From contig NZ_JAFEMB010000002.1 in NCBI RefSeq assembly GCF_016892705.1, forward strand, positions 62,001 through 126,000: a stretch of 64,000 nucleotides of DNA, in the 5' to 3' direction. The notes beneath the pieces are model-generated. The model had not been told where the DNA came from and made no database searches. It saw only the letters and a program-made list of their open reading frames with translations. Positions 1,878-13,150 of this stretch are shown here, one piece after another. This DNA is from Microvirga pudoricolor. GTDB taxonomy: Bacteria > Pseudomonadota > Alphaproteobacteria > Rhizobiales > Beijerinckiaceae. A program made the position numbers and the translations under genes. How positions within the stretch are numbered: the stretch's first letter is position 1; the number at the start of each line of letters is the position of its first letter.

Positions 1878-1970
1878 ACGACGCTCTTCCTGTTTACGGT
1901 TTGTTCACGTATGTAATGGGGGATGAGACACCATGCAAAAACACGCGAATCATCTCGGACCAAGGTTCGA

Positions 1971-4034
1971 ATGACTGACAACGATGATCTCTTCAATGGC
2001 GGCAGCGCCTCCGCGAAACGTGCCGCAACGGCAGCCGCCAGGAACGCCGCCGTGAAGGTCTCGCGTGCGCCGCAGGGCGGCACCCTGGACGAGGTCGGCT
2101 ACGACGCCTCCGCCATCGAGGTTCTCGAAGGCCTGGAGCCCGTGCGCCGCCGTCCGGGCATGTATATCGGCGGCACGGACGAGAAGGCCCTGCACCACCT
2201 CTTCGCCGAGGTGATCGATAACGCCATGGATGAGGCCGTGGCCGGGCACGCCACCTTCATCGAGGTGGAGCTGGAAGAGGACAACTGGCTGTCCGTGACC
2301 GACAACGGACGCGGCATCCCGGTGGACCCGCACCCGAAATTCCCCAAGAAATCCGCCCTCGAAGTGATCATGACGACCCTGCATGCGGGCGGCAAGTTCG
2401 ACTCGAAGGCCTATGAGACCTCCGGTGGCCTCCACGGCGTCGGCGTGTCCGTGGTGAACGCGCTCTCCGAGACCCTGGACGTCGAGGTCGCGCGCGGGCA
2501 GACCCTCTATCGCCAGATCTTTTCGCGGGGCATCCCCAAGGGCAAGCTGGAAACCGTCGGACGGGTCCTCAACCGGCGCGGCACCAAGGTGCGCTTCAAG
2601 CCGGATCATCAGATCTTCGGCGAGGACGCCCATTTTCAGCCTCGCCGCCTCTTCAAGATGGCGCGCTCGAAGGCCTATCTGTTCGGCGGCGTCGAGATCC
2701 GCTGGAAATGCGCGCCCTCCCTCATCGAGGGCGAGGCGAATGTCCCGGCCGAGGCCGTGTTCCGCTTTCCCAACGGCCTGAAGGACTACCTGGCCCGGGA
2801 TATCGAGGGCAAGGAACTCGTCACGGATCAGGTCTTCTCCGGCAAGATCACCAAGCAGGGCGGCCACGGGTCCCTTGAATGGGCCGTCGCCTGGATGGCG
2901 AACGAGGACGGGTTCTCGTCCTCCTATTGCAACACGATCCCGACGCCGGAAGGCGGCACCCACGAGAACGGGTTGCGCATCGCCCTCCTCCGGGGCCTGC
3001 GCGAGCACGCGGAACGCGTCGGCCAGCAGAAGCGCATGGCGGCCGTCACCACCGACGACGTGATGGCCACCTGCGCGTCCATGCTGTCGGTCTTCATCCG
3101 CGAGCCGGAATTCCAGGGCCAGACCAAGGACAAGCTCGCCACCGTGGAGGCGGGCCGCATCGTCGAGAACGCGGTGCGGGACTCCTTCGACCACTGGCTC
3201 GCCGCCTCGCCCCAGCAGGCCAACAAGGTGCTGGACTGGGTCATCGACCGGGCGGAAGAGCGCCTGCGCCGCCGCCAGGAGAAGGAGGTCGCCCGCAAGA
3301 CCGCCACCCGCAAGCTGCGCCTGCCCGGCAAGCTGGCGGATTGCTCGAACGCGGGCGCGGCGGGCTCCGAACTGTTCATCGTCGAGGGCGATTCGGCGGG
3401 CGGCTCCGCCAAGCAGGCCCGCGACCGCGCCACCCAGGCGATCCTGCCGCTGCGGGGCAAGATTCTCAACGTGGCCTCTGCCGGCAAGGACAAGCTGCAC
3501 CAGAACCAGCAGCTCTCGGACCTGGTCCAGGCGCTCGGCTGCGGCACGGGCTCAGGTTATCGCGACGGGGACCTGCGCTACGAGCGCGTGATCATCATGA
3601 CGGACGCGGACGTGGACGGAGCACATATCGCATCGCTCCTCATCACGTTCTTCTACCGCCAGATGCCCCGCCTCATCGATGCGGGCCATCTCTACCTCGC
3701 GGTCCCGCCCCTCTACCGCATGAGCCAGGGCACGAAGACGATTTATGCCCGCACGGACGCCGACCGGGAGAAGCTCCTGAAGACGGCTTTCAAGGGCAAC
3801 GGCAAGATCGAGATCGGGCGCTTCAAGGGTCTCGGCGAGATGCTGCCGGGCCAGCTCAAGGAAACGACCATGGACCCGAAGAAGCGCACGCTTCTGAAAG
3901 TGGTGATCGCGGCCGAGGAGCGCCCCGAGACCGGAGACGCGATCGAGCGCCTGATGGGAAACAAACCCGAAGCGCGCTTCGCCTTCATCCAGGAACGCGC
4001 CGCGTTCGCGGACGAGGCGGATCTGGACATCTGA
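1971..4034 (+). CDS. parE: DNA topoisomerase IV subunit B (ParE)
   Basis: This is the ATPase subunit of topoisomerase IV, which works with ParC to decatenate daughter chromosomes. GHKL ATPase motifs are present (DNAMDEAV near residue 83, DNGRGIP, SGGLHGVGVSVVNALS), followed by the TOPRIM region EGDSAGGSAKQARDR (near 471), TDADVDGAHI (near 545) and the RFKGLGEM motif. The QARDR variant and PPLYRMSQG favour ParE over GyrB. I chose the ATG at 1971 (MTDNDDLF, 687 aa), with AAGG upstream; an in-frame ATG at 1923 would add 16 unconserved residues. It lies between topA and rnr, away from any parC in the window. Confidence 0.93.
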   Translation: MTDNDDLFNGGSASAKRAATAAARNAAVKVSRAPQGGTLDEVGYDASAIEVLEGLEPVRRRPGMYIGGTDEKALHHLFAEVIDNAMDEAVAGHATFIEVELEEDNWLSVTDNGRGIPVDPHPKFPKKSALEVIMTTLHAGGKFDSKAYETSGGLHGVGVSVVNALSETLDVEVARGQTLYRQIFSRGIPKGKLETVGRVLNRRGTKVRFKPDHQIFGEDAHFQPRRLFKMARSKAYLFGGVEIRWKCAPSLIEGEANVPAEAVFRFPNGLKDYLARDIEGKELVTDQVFSGKITKQGGHGSLEWAVAWMANEDGFSSSYCNTIPTPEGGTHENGLRIALLRGLREHAERVGQQKRMAAVTTDDVMATCASMLSVFIREPEFQGQTKDKLATVEAGRIVENAVRDSFDHWLAASPQQANKVLDWVIDRAEERLRRRQEKEVARKTATRKLRLPGKLADCSNAGAAGSELFIVEGDSAGGSAKQARDRATQAILPLRGKILNVASAGKDKLHQNQQLSDLVQALGCGTGSGYRDGDLRYERVIIMTDADVDGAHIASLLITFFYRQMPRLIDAGHLYLAVPPLYRMSQGTKTIYARTDADREKLLKTAFKGNGKIEIGRFKGLGEMLPGQLKETTMDPKKRTLLKVVIAAEERPETGDAIERLMGNKPEARFAFIQERAAFADEADLDI

Positions 4035-4988: not shown

Positions 4989-5054
4989 TCTCGTTTTTGA
5001 CGGGTCGATTGCTGCGTTATGAAACCCGGCAGACTTCACCATCGAGGACGCAAG

Positions 5055-5462
5055 ATGCCCATCATGAGAACGGCTGTTCGCAAGGACACCAGCCGGCAGA
5101 CCCGCGACGCGATCGTCTCAGGAATCCATCAGGCCATGGTCGATGCCATCGGGATGCCCGAGGACGAACTGTTCAATATCGTCTCCGAGTATGATCCGAA
5201 GGATTTCCACTACAGCAGGACCTTCAACGGCATCGCCCGCTCCGATAACTTGGTCCTCATCGAAATCACGATGCGCCGGGGTCGGAGCGACGCCATGAAG
5301 CGCGAGATCTATCGCCTGATCACCGTCAATCTTGAGAAAAGCTCAGGTATCTCACCCAAAGACGTCTTCATCTTCGTCCATGAGAATGACTATTCGGACT
5401 GGTCCGTGGGCAATGGAATCGGCGCAATGGCCCTCGTTCAACAAAGAGGCACGGACTTCTGA
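5055..5462 (+). CDS. Tautomerase-superfamily protein
   Basis: A 135-aa protein of the tautomerase superfamily (Tautomerase_2 type, longer than 4-oxalocrotonate tautomerase). The start at 5055 is chosen because it puts proline directly after the initiator Met (MPIMRTAVRKD); the exposed N-terminal Pro is the catalytic base of the family. An upstream in-frame ATG at 5019 would bury it. GAGG lies upstream. A conserved central stretch (LVLIEITMRRGRS...KREIYR) matches the beta-alpha-beta core. The substrate is unknown. It is divergent from the LysR gene, which is its likely regulator. Confidence 0.8.
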   Translation: MPIMRTAVRKDTSRQTRDAIVSGIHQAMVDAIGMPEDELFNIVSEYDPKDFHYSRTFNGIARSDNLVLIEITMRRGRSDAMKREIYRLITVNLEKSSGISPKDVFIFVHENDYSDWSVGNGIGAMALVQQRGTDF

Positions 5463-5552
5463 CGCGGCCCCGGCCTACCTCGGTTGCGACGGCTGCCGGG
5501 CAGGGAAACTCCTTTATACTCCCCTCGTCCGCTTGAGGTGCCGGGGAGCAGA

Positions 5553-6440
5553 ATGGTCAGTCGGCAGGCGCAGATGTTCTGGAATCTCCTGCGGGTTGCC
5601 CCCAAGCAGGTCGATCTCCCGATCGCCCAACGTCGTGAGGCGGGGGAGCATGCCGAAGATGCGACGGCGGAGCCGACCGGCGTGACCTATCGGCCCGCTC
5701 CCGAGGTCGGCGGTTTCGTCGCCCTGCCCGAGGGGCCTCCGCCGCCATCGGCCATCCTCTACCTTTTCGGTGGCGGCTACATGCTCGGCTCGCCCGCTTC
5801 GCGCCGGAAAACCGCCGGTCATCTGGCGAAGGCATGCCAGACGCGGGTTCTTGTCCCGGCCTATCGCCTCGCCCCTGAACACCCCTTTCCGGCCGCGCTC
5901 GATGATGCGGTGCTGGCGTACCGTTGGCTTTTGTCCCAGGACGTCAAAGCATCGAAGGTCATCATTGCGGGCGATTCTTCCGGCGGAGGGCTCGCCTTCG
6001 CGACGGCTCTCGCCTTGAAGCGACAGGGTCTCGATCAGCCCGCTGGGATCATCGGGCTCTCGCCCTGGGCCGACCTCACATGCCAGGGCGCCAGCATGGA
6101 CGAGTGTGCGGAGCGTGATATCGAATGCACCCGGGTGTCGCTCCTGCAGATGGCGCAGTGGTATCTGGCGGGAGCGAGCCCGGCGCAGCCTTTGGCGTCC
6201 CCGGTTTTGGGAGACTTATCCGGCTTGAAGTCGGTGCTTTGCTTGGTGGGCAGCGAGGAGATCCTCCTGGATGACAGCGTTCGTCTGGTCCGCAATGCCG
6301 GACTTGCCGGAACGGACGCCACGTTGCACGTCGCTCCCGGCATGCAGCACATCTATCCGATCTGGGCCGGAGCCTTTCCGGAAGCCGATGAGGCCATCTC
6401 GATGATCGCCAGCTGGGCTCGATGCCGCCTCGGAAACTAA
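5553..6440 (+). CDS. Alpha/beta hydrolase, hormone-sensitive-lipase family, altered oxyanion motif
   Basis: A 295-aa carboxylesterase-like protein. The nucleophile motif GDSSGGG (Ser142), YRLAPEHPFPAAL and a C-terminal His (PGMQHIYP) are those of HSL-family (family IV) esterases, with an acidic residue in SEEILLDD. The usual HGGG oxyanion motif reads FGGG here (Phe72), which is odd. I chose the ATG at 5553 because GGGGAG lies 4 nt upstream; a frame from 5484 adds 23 unlikely residues. No signal peptide is visible, so it is probably cytoplasmic. It may belong with the tautomerase upstream (90-bp gap), but a TATACT-like -10 at about 5515 suggests its own promoter. Confidence 0.8.
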   Translation: MVSRQAQMFWNLLRVAPKQVDLPIAQRREAGEHAEDATAEPTGVTYRPAPEVGGFVALPEGPPPPSAILYLFGGGYMLGSPASRRKTAGHLAKACQTRVLVPAYRLAPEHPFPAALDDAVLAYRWLLSQDVKASKVIIAGDSSGGGLAFATALALKRQGLDQPAGIIGLSPWADLTCQGASMDECAERDIECTRVSLLQMAQWYLAGASPAQPLASPVLGDLSGLKSVLCLVGSEEILLDDSVRLVRNAGLAGTDATLHVAPGMQHIYPIWAGAFPEADEAISMIASWARCRLGN

Positions 6441-6490
6441 CGGGGCATCGCTATCCTTTCCGATGGATCGAAAATTTCTTCGAAAAAGTT

Positions 6491-6515
6491 GGAACCGCTG
6501 TCCAGGCCCGGCGTT
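6491..6515 (+). promoter_or_regulatory. Putative EcfG (general stress sigma) promoter
   Basis: GGAAC (6491-6495), a 16-nt spacer and CGTT (6512-6515) match the consensus for the alphaproteobacterial general stress sigma factor exactly. No protein-coding start follows within 180 nt, but a two-hairpin structure begins about 12 nt downstream. Confidence 0.65.
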
Positions 6516-6521
6516 GTATGG

Positions 6522-6595
6522 ACATCACCGGCTCGCTCTGCCCCCAAGAGCCGGTCTCCTACAAGGCCCCCTACTCGGGGGCCTTTCTTTTTGTT
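6522..6595 (+). ncRNA. Candidate stress-induced small RNA (~74 nt, two hairpins)
   Basis: Starting about 6 nt after the EcfG promoter match, the sequence folds into hairpin 1 (ACCGGCTC / GAGCCGGT, 6527-6555) with a cytosine-rich loop containing TGCCCCCA. Hairpin 2 is a classic terminator (AAGGCCCCC / GGGGGCCTT, 6563-6585) followed by TCTTTTTGTT. Promoter, size, C-rich loop and terminator fit the design of alphaproteobacterial trans-acting sRNAs whose C-rich loops bind purine-rich ribosome binding sites. No convincing ORF lies inside. The alternative is a 3' UTR of the upstream hydrolase gene. The start is estimated from the promoter, not known. Confidence 0.55.
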
Positions 6596-6703
6596 CATAA
6601 GGCCTTAGGAGCATTTATAGGGCTAGCAATCGGGGCCGGCTGACATCATCTTGAGTGGGATCCCTGCGCTTGCCGGATTGCCTTAGCGGCTACCCGCGAC
6701 AAG

Positions 6704-9082
6704 TTGTCAGCGGATCAGCTGCATCCTTCGAAGGCATTCAAGAGTCCTCCCGCATTGGCCAGACGCCCCAAAGCCCCCGCCCCCTCCCTCCCGACCCGGG
6801 AGGAACTCATGAGCTTCATCGCGGATTCGCCCCGAAAGGTGGGCAAACGGGAAATCGCGAAGGCCTTCGGCATCCATGGTGGTGACCGGATCTGGCTCAA
6901 GCAGGCCCTCAAGGAACTCGAGGACGAGGGCGCTATCGACCGGCGCCACAAGAGCGTTCACAAGGCCGGGCAGCTTCCGCCCGTTGTCTTGGCCGACATC
7001 AAGCGTCGGGACCAAGATGGCGAGCTGATCGCGGAGCCGGCCGAATGGAATGCCGACGAAGACGGCCCGATCCCCACCATCCTGGTCACGTTTCCCCATA
7101 AGCCGCGCCGTGACCAGCCGACGCCCGGCGTGAACGACCGAGCGCTGATCAGGGTCTCGCCGCTCAAGGGCGACATCCACAGATATACCGGCCGCGTGGT
7201 CAAGATCGTGGCCCGCCAGCGCAGCCAGGTGCTCGGCATCTTCCAGGCCATGCCGGAGGGCGGCGGCAGGATCGTACCGGTCGAGAAGAAATCGCGCGAC
7301 AAGGAGCTCCTCGTCCGCCCCGGCGACGAGAACGAGGCCCAAGACGGCGATCTGGTCTCCGTTTCCTTATCGAAGCCGAGCCGCTTCGGCCTGCCCCAGG
7401 CCAAGGTGCAGGAGCGCTTGGGCTCCGTGAAATCCGAGAAGGCCGTCAGCCTCATCGCGATCCACGCCCACGGCATCCCCAACGTGTTCTCCAAGGAAGC
7501 CCTGGCCGAGGCGGAGTCCGCCAAGCCCGTGACGCTCGCGGAGCGCGAGGATTGGCGAAAGCTGCCGCTCGTCACCATCGATCCGCCCGACGCCAAGGAC
7601 CACGACGACGCCGTGCACGCGGTGGCCGACGAAGACCCCGACAACCCGGGCGGGTTTGTGGTCACCGTGGCCATCGCGGATGTGTCGGCCTATGTGCGGC
7701 CCGGCTCCGCGCTGGATCGCGATGCGCTGGAGCGCGGCAACTCGGTGTACTTCCCGGATCGTGTCGTGCCCATGCTGCCGGAACGGATCTCGAACGACCT
7801 CTGCTCCCTGAGGCCCCTGGAAGATCGCCCAGCCCTCGCCATGCGCATGATCGTGGACGCGGACGGCCGCAAGAAGAGCCATGGCTTCCACCGGATCATG
7901 ATGCGCTCGGCCGCGAAGCTATCCTACCAGCAAGCGCAGTCCGCCATCGATGGAAGGCCGGACGACACGACCGGCCCCATCCTCGAGCCGATCCTCAAGC
8001 CGCTTTGGGCCGCCTATGCGGCGGTTAAAAAAGCACGCGACATCCGCGAGCCGCTGTTCCTCGACCTACCCGAGCGCAAGATCGTGCTGAAACAGGACGG
8101 GACTGTGGACCGGGTCCTCGTGCCGGAGAGGTTGGAAGCCCACAAATTGATCGAGGAGTTCATGATCCTCGCCAACGTGGCGGCGGCCGAGACCCTGGAG
8201 AAGGCGGGGTCCGACCTGATCTATCGGGTCCATGACGAGCCATCCCTCGAGAAGATGAAGTCACTCGGCGAGGTCCTCGCTTCGGTCGGCCTCAAGCTGT
8301 CTGCGCAAGGCGCGCTCAAGGCCGAACTCTTCAATCGCATTCTCCGGTCGGTCGAGAACTCCGAAAACCAGCTCTTCATCAACGAAGTGGTGCTGCGGTC
8401 CCAATCCCAGGCCGAGTATTCGGCTGAGAATTATGGCCATTTCGGCTTGAACCTGCGCCGCTATGCACACTTCACCTCCCCGATCCGTCGCTATGCGGAC
8501 CTCATCGTGCACCGGGCTCTGATAACGGCTCTGAAGCTCGGCAAGGATGGGCTTTCGCCCGACACCAAGCGCCAGCAGCTCATCGAGATCAGCGCCGGCA
8601 TCTCCACCGCCGAGCGCCGCGCCATGGCGGCGGAGCGCGAGACCATCGACCGCCTGATCGCCCATCACCTCGCCGACCGGATCGGCGCGACGTTCGATGG
8701 GCAGATTTCCGGCGTCACCAAGTCCGGACTGTTCGTGAAGCTGCACGACACGGGCGCCGATGGCTTCATTCCGGCAGGCACCATCGGGGCGGACTATTAC
8801 CGGTTCGAGGAAGGCACGCACTCCATGCGCGGCGAGCGGACGGGCGAGACCTTTCGACTTGGCGACAACGTGAAGGTGAAGCTGGTGGAAGCCGCTCCCG
8901 TGGCGGGCGCCCTTCGCTTCGAGTTGATGTCGGAGGGCCGCTACAGCAAAAAGCCGCATGGCGGAAAAGGTGGCGGCAAGGCTAAACGGGGGCCGGACGC
9001 CAAGAAGGGCGCGACGCGGGCTCAGTCCCGTCCCGGCAAGACGCGGGTCAGAACCAAGAGCAGGCGTGGCGGCGCCGCATAG
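6704..9082 (+). CDS. rnr: Ribonuclease R
   Basis: A 3'-5' processive exoribonuclease that degrades structured RNA. Domain order: N-terminal winged helix (KVGKREIAKAFGI), cold-shock-like OB folds, the RNB catalytic domain with the Asp cluster DPPDAKDHDDAVHA, the helical part with HFTSPIRRYADL, a C-terminal S1 domain (ISGVTKSGLFVKL) and a Lys/Arg-rich tail for RNA binding. At 792 aa it has the usual family length. The start is uncertain: the frame opens with TTG at 6704, another TTG lies at 6755, and the ATG at 6808 would cut into the winged helix; none has a clear ribosome binding site. It leads the rnr-DUF983-NUDIX gene run. Confidence 0.93.
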   Translation: MSADQLHPSKAFKSPPALARRPKAPAPSLPTREELMSFIADSPRKVGKREIAKAFGIHGGDRIWLKQALKELEDEGAIDRRHKSVHKAGQLPPVVLADIKRRDQDGELIAEPAEWNADEDGPIPTILVTFPHKPRRDQPTPGVNDRALIRVSPLKGDIHRYTGRVVKIVARQRSQVLGIFQAMPEGGGRIVPVEKKSRDKELLVRPGDENEAQDGDLVSVSLSKPSRFGLPQAKVQERLGSVKSEKAVSLIAIHAHGIPNVFSKEALAEAESAKPVTLAEREDWRKLPLVTIDPPDAKDHDDAVHAVADEDPDNPGGFVVTVAIADVSAYVRPGSALDRDALERGNSVYFPDRVVPMLPERISNDLCSLRPLEDRPALAMRMIVDADGRKKSHGFHRIMMRSAAKLSYQQAQSAIDGRPDDTTGPILEPILKPLWAAYAAVKKARDIREPLFLDLPERKIVLKQDGTVDRVLVPERLEAHKLIEEFMILANVAAAETLEKAGSDLIYRVHDEPSLEKMKSLGEVLASVGLKLSAQGALKAELFNRILRSVENSENQLFINEVVLRSQSQAEYSAENYGHFGLNLRRYAHFTSPIRRYADLIVHRALITALKLGKDGLSPDTKRQQLIEISAGISTAERRAMAAERETIDRLIAHHLADRIGATFDGQISGVTKSGLFVKLHDTGADGFIPAGTIGADYYRFEEGTHSMRGERTGETFRLGDNVKVKLVEAAPVAGALRFELMSEGRYSKKPHGGKGGGKAKRGPDAKKGATRAQSRPGKTRVRTKSRRGGAA

Positions 9083-12974: not shown

Positions 12975-12989
12975 CGGGAAATGGTGGCC

Positions 12990-13150
12990 AGCTGGAGGTA
13001 GAGCTGAGGAGGCAACATCCACCTCCAGCTTGGCCGAGCCCTCGAACCCAGGAGATGCGGCGGACCTGAGCATCAAAGGCATGGAAGACCCGCTTGCGGC
13101 GGGAAAGGCGTGACCAGAAGAAAATCAGAAACCGGAAGCCCTTGCAAGGG
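12990..13150. repeat. Intergenic inverted repeats
   Basis: AGCTGGAGGT (12990-12999) and ACCTCCAGCT (13021-13030) are exact inverted repeats, and a second perfect palindrome CCCTTGCAAGGG lies at 13139-13150. No gene is supported between 12975 and 13247. The first pair may terminate the DUF1275 transcript, although no T tract follows; the second could be a binding site or terminator element for the minus-strand pleD-like gene. Confidence 0.4.

Follow-up and report, generated by a model that had tools for sequence, protein, structure and literature searches.

To our knowledge, small RNAs (sRNAs) under the control of EcfG have been described from few alphaproteobacteria, with GsrN of Caulobacter crescentus as the worked example. 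Other C-rich stress RNAs invite comparison: the CcsR ('cuckoo') RNAs of Rhodobacter sphaeroides are stress-induced, carry repeated C-rich loops with the motif CCUCCUCCC, and follow a DUF1127 gene and an RpoH-type promoter, whilst the LhrC RNAs, from another phylum, are controlled by LisRK, carry UCCC motifs and resemble one another in sequence. LhrC constitutes an sRNA family of Listeria monocytogenes (PMC4132741). GsrN itself is described in PMC5869019 as a general stress sRNA of ~106 nt, transcribed from a sigma-T promoter (GGAAC / CGTT, for which Tien et al. used a consensus spacing of 15-17 bp), whose C-rich 5' loop, with six tandem C, pairs with the first bases (the leader) of katG mRNA; it ends in a 3' intrinsic terminator and is processed to a stable 5' isoform. 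According to the same source, BLAST relatives of GsrN come from Caulobacteraceae only and usually lie near ecfG-nepR-phyR, though not in C. crescentus itself, and GsrN-like RNAs with an EcfG box and an exposed C-rich loop are predicted at the general stress response (GSR) locus of Rhizobiaceae, Rhodopseudomonas and Bradyrhizobium (PMC5869019). Among the matches listed from the open literature (including PMC5869019 and PMC4842269) there is no report of such an sRNA from Microvirga.

The window analysed here is a stretch of 64,000 nucleotides from Microvirga pudoricolor (contig NZ_JAFEMB010000002.1, positions 62,001 to 126,000). Its sequence confirms the original prediction of an EcfG box at 6491-6515 followed by a two-hairpin RNA with a terminator (~6521-6592; Table 1), and the accompanying remark that no gene starts for 180 nt also holds, the furthest possible start of rnr (6704) lying 189 nt past the box. 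Folding of 6520-6595 gives a minimum free energy of -35.0 kcal/mol against -21.8 (sd 2.7) for shuffled sequences (z = -4.9; 0 of 200 shuffles fold as well) and leaves the C-rich loop GCUCUGCCCCCAA, with five C, unpaired near the predicted 5' end. The 9-pair stem of hairpin 2 is the longest among the 7 terminator candidates found by a scan of 5000-8000, where 1.9 were expected, and a second hairpin followed by a U tail is present in 46 of 47 orthologues. Two open reading frames touch the region: a mechanical ORF of 73 aa (6422-6643) spans the RNA, and its ATG at 6518 (41 codons) is without evident ribosome binding site, is missing in 35 of 46 orthologues and stands in another frame in 9; a 76-aa ORF beginning at 6655, which runs into rnr, seems spurious.

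Table 1. Features of the locus and of related predicted RNAs; positions are those of the window unless a contig or another locus is named
Feature	Position	Strand	Sequence, basis or context
parE (topoisomerase IV subunit B), upstream landmark	1923..4034	+	TIGR01055 above cut-off
AT-rich stretch, possible UP-like element	6461..6490	+	74% A+T, mean of 30 nt in 46 orthologues
-35 element GGAAC, EcfG-type promoter	6491..6495	+	sequence; kept in 46/46 orthologues
-10 element CGTT, spacer 16	6512..6515	+	CGTT in 44/46, AGTT in 2/46 orthologues
Predicted small RNA, ~70 nt	6521..6592	+	start (~6521-6524) placed from the -10 box, 3' end from the terminator
Hairpin 1, 8-bp stem, 13-nt loop	6527..6555	+	ACCGGCTC (6527-6534), loop GCTCTGCCCCCAA (6535-6547), GAGCCGGT (6548-6555); sequence, fold
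Loop core, putative seed CTGCCCCCA	6538..6546	+	TCTGCCCCCA in 46/46 orthologues
Hairpin 2 and U-rich tail, predicted intrinsic terminator	6563..6592	+	AAGGCCCCC (6563-6571), TACTC, GGGGGCCTT (6577-6585), T-rich tail to 6592; terminator scan
rnr (ribonuclease R), downstream landmark	6704..9082	+	TIGR02063 above cut-off
Sister RNA (predicted)	C8:679325		stem GGAAGGTC/GACCTTTC, loop TAACTGCCCCCAT
Sister RNA (predicted)	C11:407791		stem CGGAAGCGCG/TGCGCTTCCG, loop TCTGCCCCC
Class B RNA	relatives, phyR-nepR-ecfG locus (~2 kb from phyR)		TGCCCC loop
Class C RNA	relatives		TGCCCC loop
Class D RNA	one genome, adjoining a second nepR-ecfG pair		TGCCCC loop
Class E, EcfG-driven C-rich RNA (predicted)	L211 near 6701; L212 8223; L202 9183	-; +; +	GCACCGGCCTCCTGGTCCTCCCC...; beside phyR
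Class E copy in the window's genome	L210 near 6588	+	weaker -10 box
Divergent G-loop hairpins	L290, L291, L292, L293, L204, L288, L273; also L272, L083		e.g. GGGGCAAA or GGGGGCAGA; upstream of class C/D RNAs

Measured against the published description of GsrN, the predicted RNA shares the EcfG-type promoter, the C-rich loop in the 5' part and the 3' intrinsic terminator; it differs in being shorter, in carrying UGCCCCCA rather than six tandem C, in lying between parE and rnr, away from ecfG-nepR-phyR, and in that the GsrN target katG is not found in its genome. We regard its regulation and its probable mode of action as GsrN-like, and do not file it as GsrN. The RNAs predicted at the GSR locus of other families, again compared by description, have the EcfG box and exposed C-rich loop in common with it but occupy a different locus. 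LhrC offers the likeness of multiple stress-induced sRNA genes per genome with an identical short C-rich motif, whereas the stems of the copies in the window's genome are unrelated; the CcsR RNAs are likewise alphaproteobacterial stress RNAs with C-rich loops, but here the loop holds UGCCCCCA and the upstream gene encodes a hydrolase. Rfam models matching at the locus all score below their gathering thresholds (Phe_leader 24.1/55, 6C 20.1/47 and suhB 15.1/41 bits).

Conservation carries much of the argument. A DNA search of 101 genomes returned 26 loci, many matching the terminator alone, and 14 of them, the window included, held box, UGCCCCC loop and terminator together. From these 14 we built a model, R1, of hairpin 1 alone, without promoter or terminator. 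R1 finds the RNA in nearly all of 48 Microvirga genomes, with E <= 5.4e-10 in 46, 2.6e-7 in one more and 0.097 in the last, a fragmented genome that is 92% complete. The model is now usable for annotation. An exact-pattern scan of the genome collection gave 33 records, all Microvirga, and R1 applied to 397 genomes of the order yielded, outside the genus, 10 weak matches (6e-4 to 0.09), none with an EcfG box; the RNA appears, on this sequence evidence, to be restricted to Microvirga. R1 gave 80 matches in all, of which 3 among the weakest were left uninspected; the pattern GGAAC-N15-18-(C/T)GTT, absent from the model, lies upstream of 60 of the 77 inspected, and of 46 of 63 once the 14 training copies are removed.

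Mean column identity over 46 orthologues is 1.00 in GGAAC, 0.99 in the -10 box and 0.99 in the loop, values which for the box and ten of the 13 loop columns hold by construction because the searches used to locate these columns also fixed them. The remaining values are free: 0.96 for the other three loop columns, 0.96 and 0.98 for the stem arms, 0.61 for the promoter spacer, 0.36 further upstream and 0.42 downstream. The universal TCTGCCCCCA is likewise an anchor of the alignment. The stem varies little, its seventh pair being T-G in 30, C-G in 12 and T-A in 4 of the 46. Spacing is similarly constrained, with 16 nt between -35 and -10 elements in 40 orthologues and 17 in 6, and 24-25 nt from the -10 box to TCTGCCCCCA in all 46; the AT-rich stretch before the -35 element has a column identity of 0.61 over 35 nt, compared with 0.36 further upstream. 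As far as sequence can tell, conservation falls on the functional elements, namely box, hairpin and loop. The exact EcfG pattern is not significant by itself (0.85 are expected in the window and 3 occur, a count that 8 of 100 shuffles reach); the box at 6491-6515 is significant because of its conservation and shared locus, not the pattern alone.

The surroundings are equally stable on one side. Downstream on the same strand, rnr follows in 47 of 47 syntenic copies (47 of 48 genomes) and in 32 of the 33 Microvirga records, the remaining one (L118, 8 kb) ending before rnr would be reached. Upstream, also on the same strand, parE is seen in 27 of the 33 records and 36 of the 47 loci, counts limited by flank length. 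Genes for a LysR regulator, a tautomerase and a hydrolase intervene between parE and the RNA in the window, and tblastn finds none of the three in the 33 records, some of which are short upstream.

This constancy raises the possibility that the locus is an EcfG-driven, attenuated rnr leader, in which transcription mostly stops at the terminator, read-through into RNase R is regulated, and the loop, by sensing or binding, contributes to the choice between the two. The gap to rnr is 69-307 nt in 45 of the 47 loci, and a near-fixed distance in most species would be expected of a leader too. Against this reading stand the U tail after the second hairpin and two species in which the gap widens to ~1.14 kb, with ORFs on both strands between; these two distant rnr genes disfavour an obligate leader. 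Moreover, the unit of box, hairpin, loop and terminator recurs at two further loci of the window's genome and, in relatives, close to the GSR locus, with no rnr noticed there, so that the arrangement is neither always directly upstream of rnr nor confined to it. We consider a leader unlikely, and rnr is thought to lie outside the sRNA transcript.

We favour instead a stand-alone, trans-acting sRNA of ~70 nt that would be transcribed by EcfG under general stress and pair through its loop with G-rich mRNAs, a reading to which we assign a probability of roughly 75%. PhyR (92% identical to that of a relative), NepR and EcfG are all encoded in the window's genome, with the GSR locus on contig C8 and the window RNA on C9. 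A loop-blind pattern (box, then TTTTT at sRNA distance) gives 4 sites in this genome against 1 in the reversed control: three are the window RNA and two others with a UGCCCCC loop, and the fourth resembles the start of a short gene. All three RNA sites are also found by a pattern of box plus TGCCCC, which matches 6 sites against 3 in its control. Both sister RNAs end in strong terminators, and no two of the three RNAs have related stems, TGCCCC being common to all. That three predicted RNAs of one genome share box, loop and terminator, but not the stem, suggests that the useful part is a cassette of promoter plus loop, and points to a set of stress RNAs with one common recognition sequence. 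The central proposal of the original prediction, an sRNA with a C-rich loop under general stress control, is thereby supported at the level of sequence: by the conserved box, hairpin and loop, by the presence of PhyR, NepR and EcfG, and by the recurrence of the unit with the same loop.

The mechanism we envisage would run as follows. Under general stress, PhyR would free EcfG from NepR, and RNA polymerase with EcfG would transcribe the RNA; hairpin 1 would present the unpaired seed UCUGCCCCCA, and hairpin 2, as an intrinsic terminator, would leave a U tail of the kind suited to Hfq. The seed would pair with G-rich stretches (GGGGCA/GGGGGCAG) of target mRNAs, likeliest in leaders or ribosome binding sites, altering their translation or stability. 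On conservation and the analogy with GsrN, from which the claims on seed and regulation derive, the exposed UCUGCCCCCA is likely the seed and G-rich mRNA leaders likely its targets. Each cell would hold several EcfG-driven RNAs of unrelated stem and identical seed, and since the sister RNAs carry the same seed, partial redundancy or additive effects on a shared group of targets would be expected. If so, the window RNA would be a second case of an EcfG-controlled sRNA, and one that is syntenic across a genus. It opens two questions to experiment: whether selection favours a shared seed among stress RNAs, and what such a seed recognises in bacteria lacking KatG. Searching for the box and then a T-run at sRNA distance offers, in addition, a homology-free route to discovery.

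Searches for targets gave negative results, and no mRNA target emerged from them. The 13-mer complement TGGGGGCAGAATG occurs at 56 sites in 44 of the 48 genomes, and the antisense strand of the sRNA genes themselves accounts for 44 of these sites; none of the other 12 lies at an evident gene start, as judged by eye without gene calls, five being one recurring coding stretch (WGQNAG) and the rest falling in open frames. In the window's genome, the 10-mer TGGGGGCAGA has 9 sites against 10 in the reversed control. Duplex energies over 293 candidate start regions (window and three further stretches of the same genome, crude gene calls, at most 3 candidate starts per ORF) reach -21.0 at best, compared with a mean best of -23.5 for shuffled loops. 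The only complement at a possible start in this genome, 11 nt before the ATG of a sensor kinase (L172), was rejected as a conserved target because it is missing in 14 relatives, which keep 6 nt at most; at 40-52% identity these relatives are not certain to be orthologues, and their start codons are uncertain. KatG was rejected as a target as well: TIGR00198 finds none in the window's genome and matches in only 6 of the 48 genomes (5 above cut-off), so the target set must differ from that of GsrN.

Related RNAs occur more widely in the genus. A simple scan over all loci examined gave 32 distinct TGCCCC hairpins, 4 of them outside Microvirga. Classes B and E, near phyR-nepR-ecfG, are the positional counterparts of the GsrN-like RNAs of other families; class E corresponds by position to GsrN too, and its copies seen are nearly identical. 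For the sister RNAs and class E, Rfam returned sub-threshold or unrelated matches only; ctRNA_p42d scores 31.6 of 50 bits at L181, and RNAI matches elsewhere in L211. Tandem class D RNAs with divergent partners lie at L272 (5250-5760), beside the second nepR-ecfG pair (NepR 37%, EcfG 72% identity). Three further loci (L279, L280, L281) have a TGCCCC loop and terminator, with the EcfG box absent by eye and a different conserved upstream region; possibly this RNA is a constitutive relative. Across the 397 genomes of the order, box plus TGCCCC matched in 150, and the reversed control matched in many too. Among 20 wider sites chosen by eye one (L224, 100-240), from another family of the order, resembles such an RNA, with an EcfG box, a CGATCAC/GTGATCG stem, the loop TGCCCCCG and a terminator-like hairpin that the terminator scan does not list; no GSR genes were found within 7 kb of it.

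Class C adds an upstream hairpin, probably on the opposite strand and 81-83 nt from the EcfG box in 7 genomes, whose G-rich loop is complementary to the seed and which, if transcribed, could be a dedicated antagonist RNA. The terminator scan finds a terminator for 3 of the 7, and cross-pairs between class C/D loops and divergent G-loops score about as well as own pairs. At L082 no G hairpin was found by scan; the hairpin seen by eye at L093, at L025 and in the second module of L272 was passed over by the scan for a distant one. We treat this complementarity as a lead rather than a result. A wider scheme, in which EcfG sRNAs of unrelated bodies share the one seed UGCCCC, a divergent G-loop antagonist counters classes C and D and the window RNA is the genus-wide core, is tentative, and we would sooner expect it to fail than to hold.

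The same hairpins bear on whether the C-rich loop is a regulatory decoy, titrating a protein or a G-rich-loop RNA rather than pairing with mRNAs. Several RNAs with one repeated loop would fit a decoy, as would the complementary partner of class C. In the window and four stretches of its own genome, however, a scan for G-loop hairpins with a terminator gave none but one (L173), and we know of no protein with specificity for such a C-rich loop. L173, considered as a sponge RNA, appears by eye to be the end of an integrase-type ORF and is for that reason probably a chance match. We judge a decoy to be distinctly improbable, and retain the stand-alone sRNA. The original prediction had itself named an outcome that would count against it, a transcript that is only the 3' UTR of the 5553-6440 gene. 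This gene encodes a hydrolase, and on such a reading the terminator would be an ordinary one and the EcfG box a chance match; the RNA does begin on the strand of the hydrolase gene, ~80 nt beyond it, and ~0.85 exact boxes per window arise by chance, but the hydrolase is found in 0 of 33 relatives' records (parE visible upstream in 27, some with little upstream sequence) whilst box and RNA are kept, which leaves this explanation very hard to sustain.

Two minor observations concern other parts of the window. A second exact EcfG box, with an N17 spacer, lies on the reverse strand at 1710-1685, and is followed by a possible 61-aa ORF (GTG 1648) whose C-terminus is hydrophobic and which may be a stress gene. 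Also on the reverse strand, at 12981-13083, a match to the known sRNA family EcpR1 (Atu_C6, RF02500) scores 72.1 bits against a threshold of 60.
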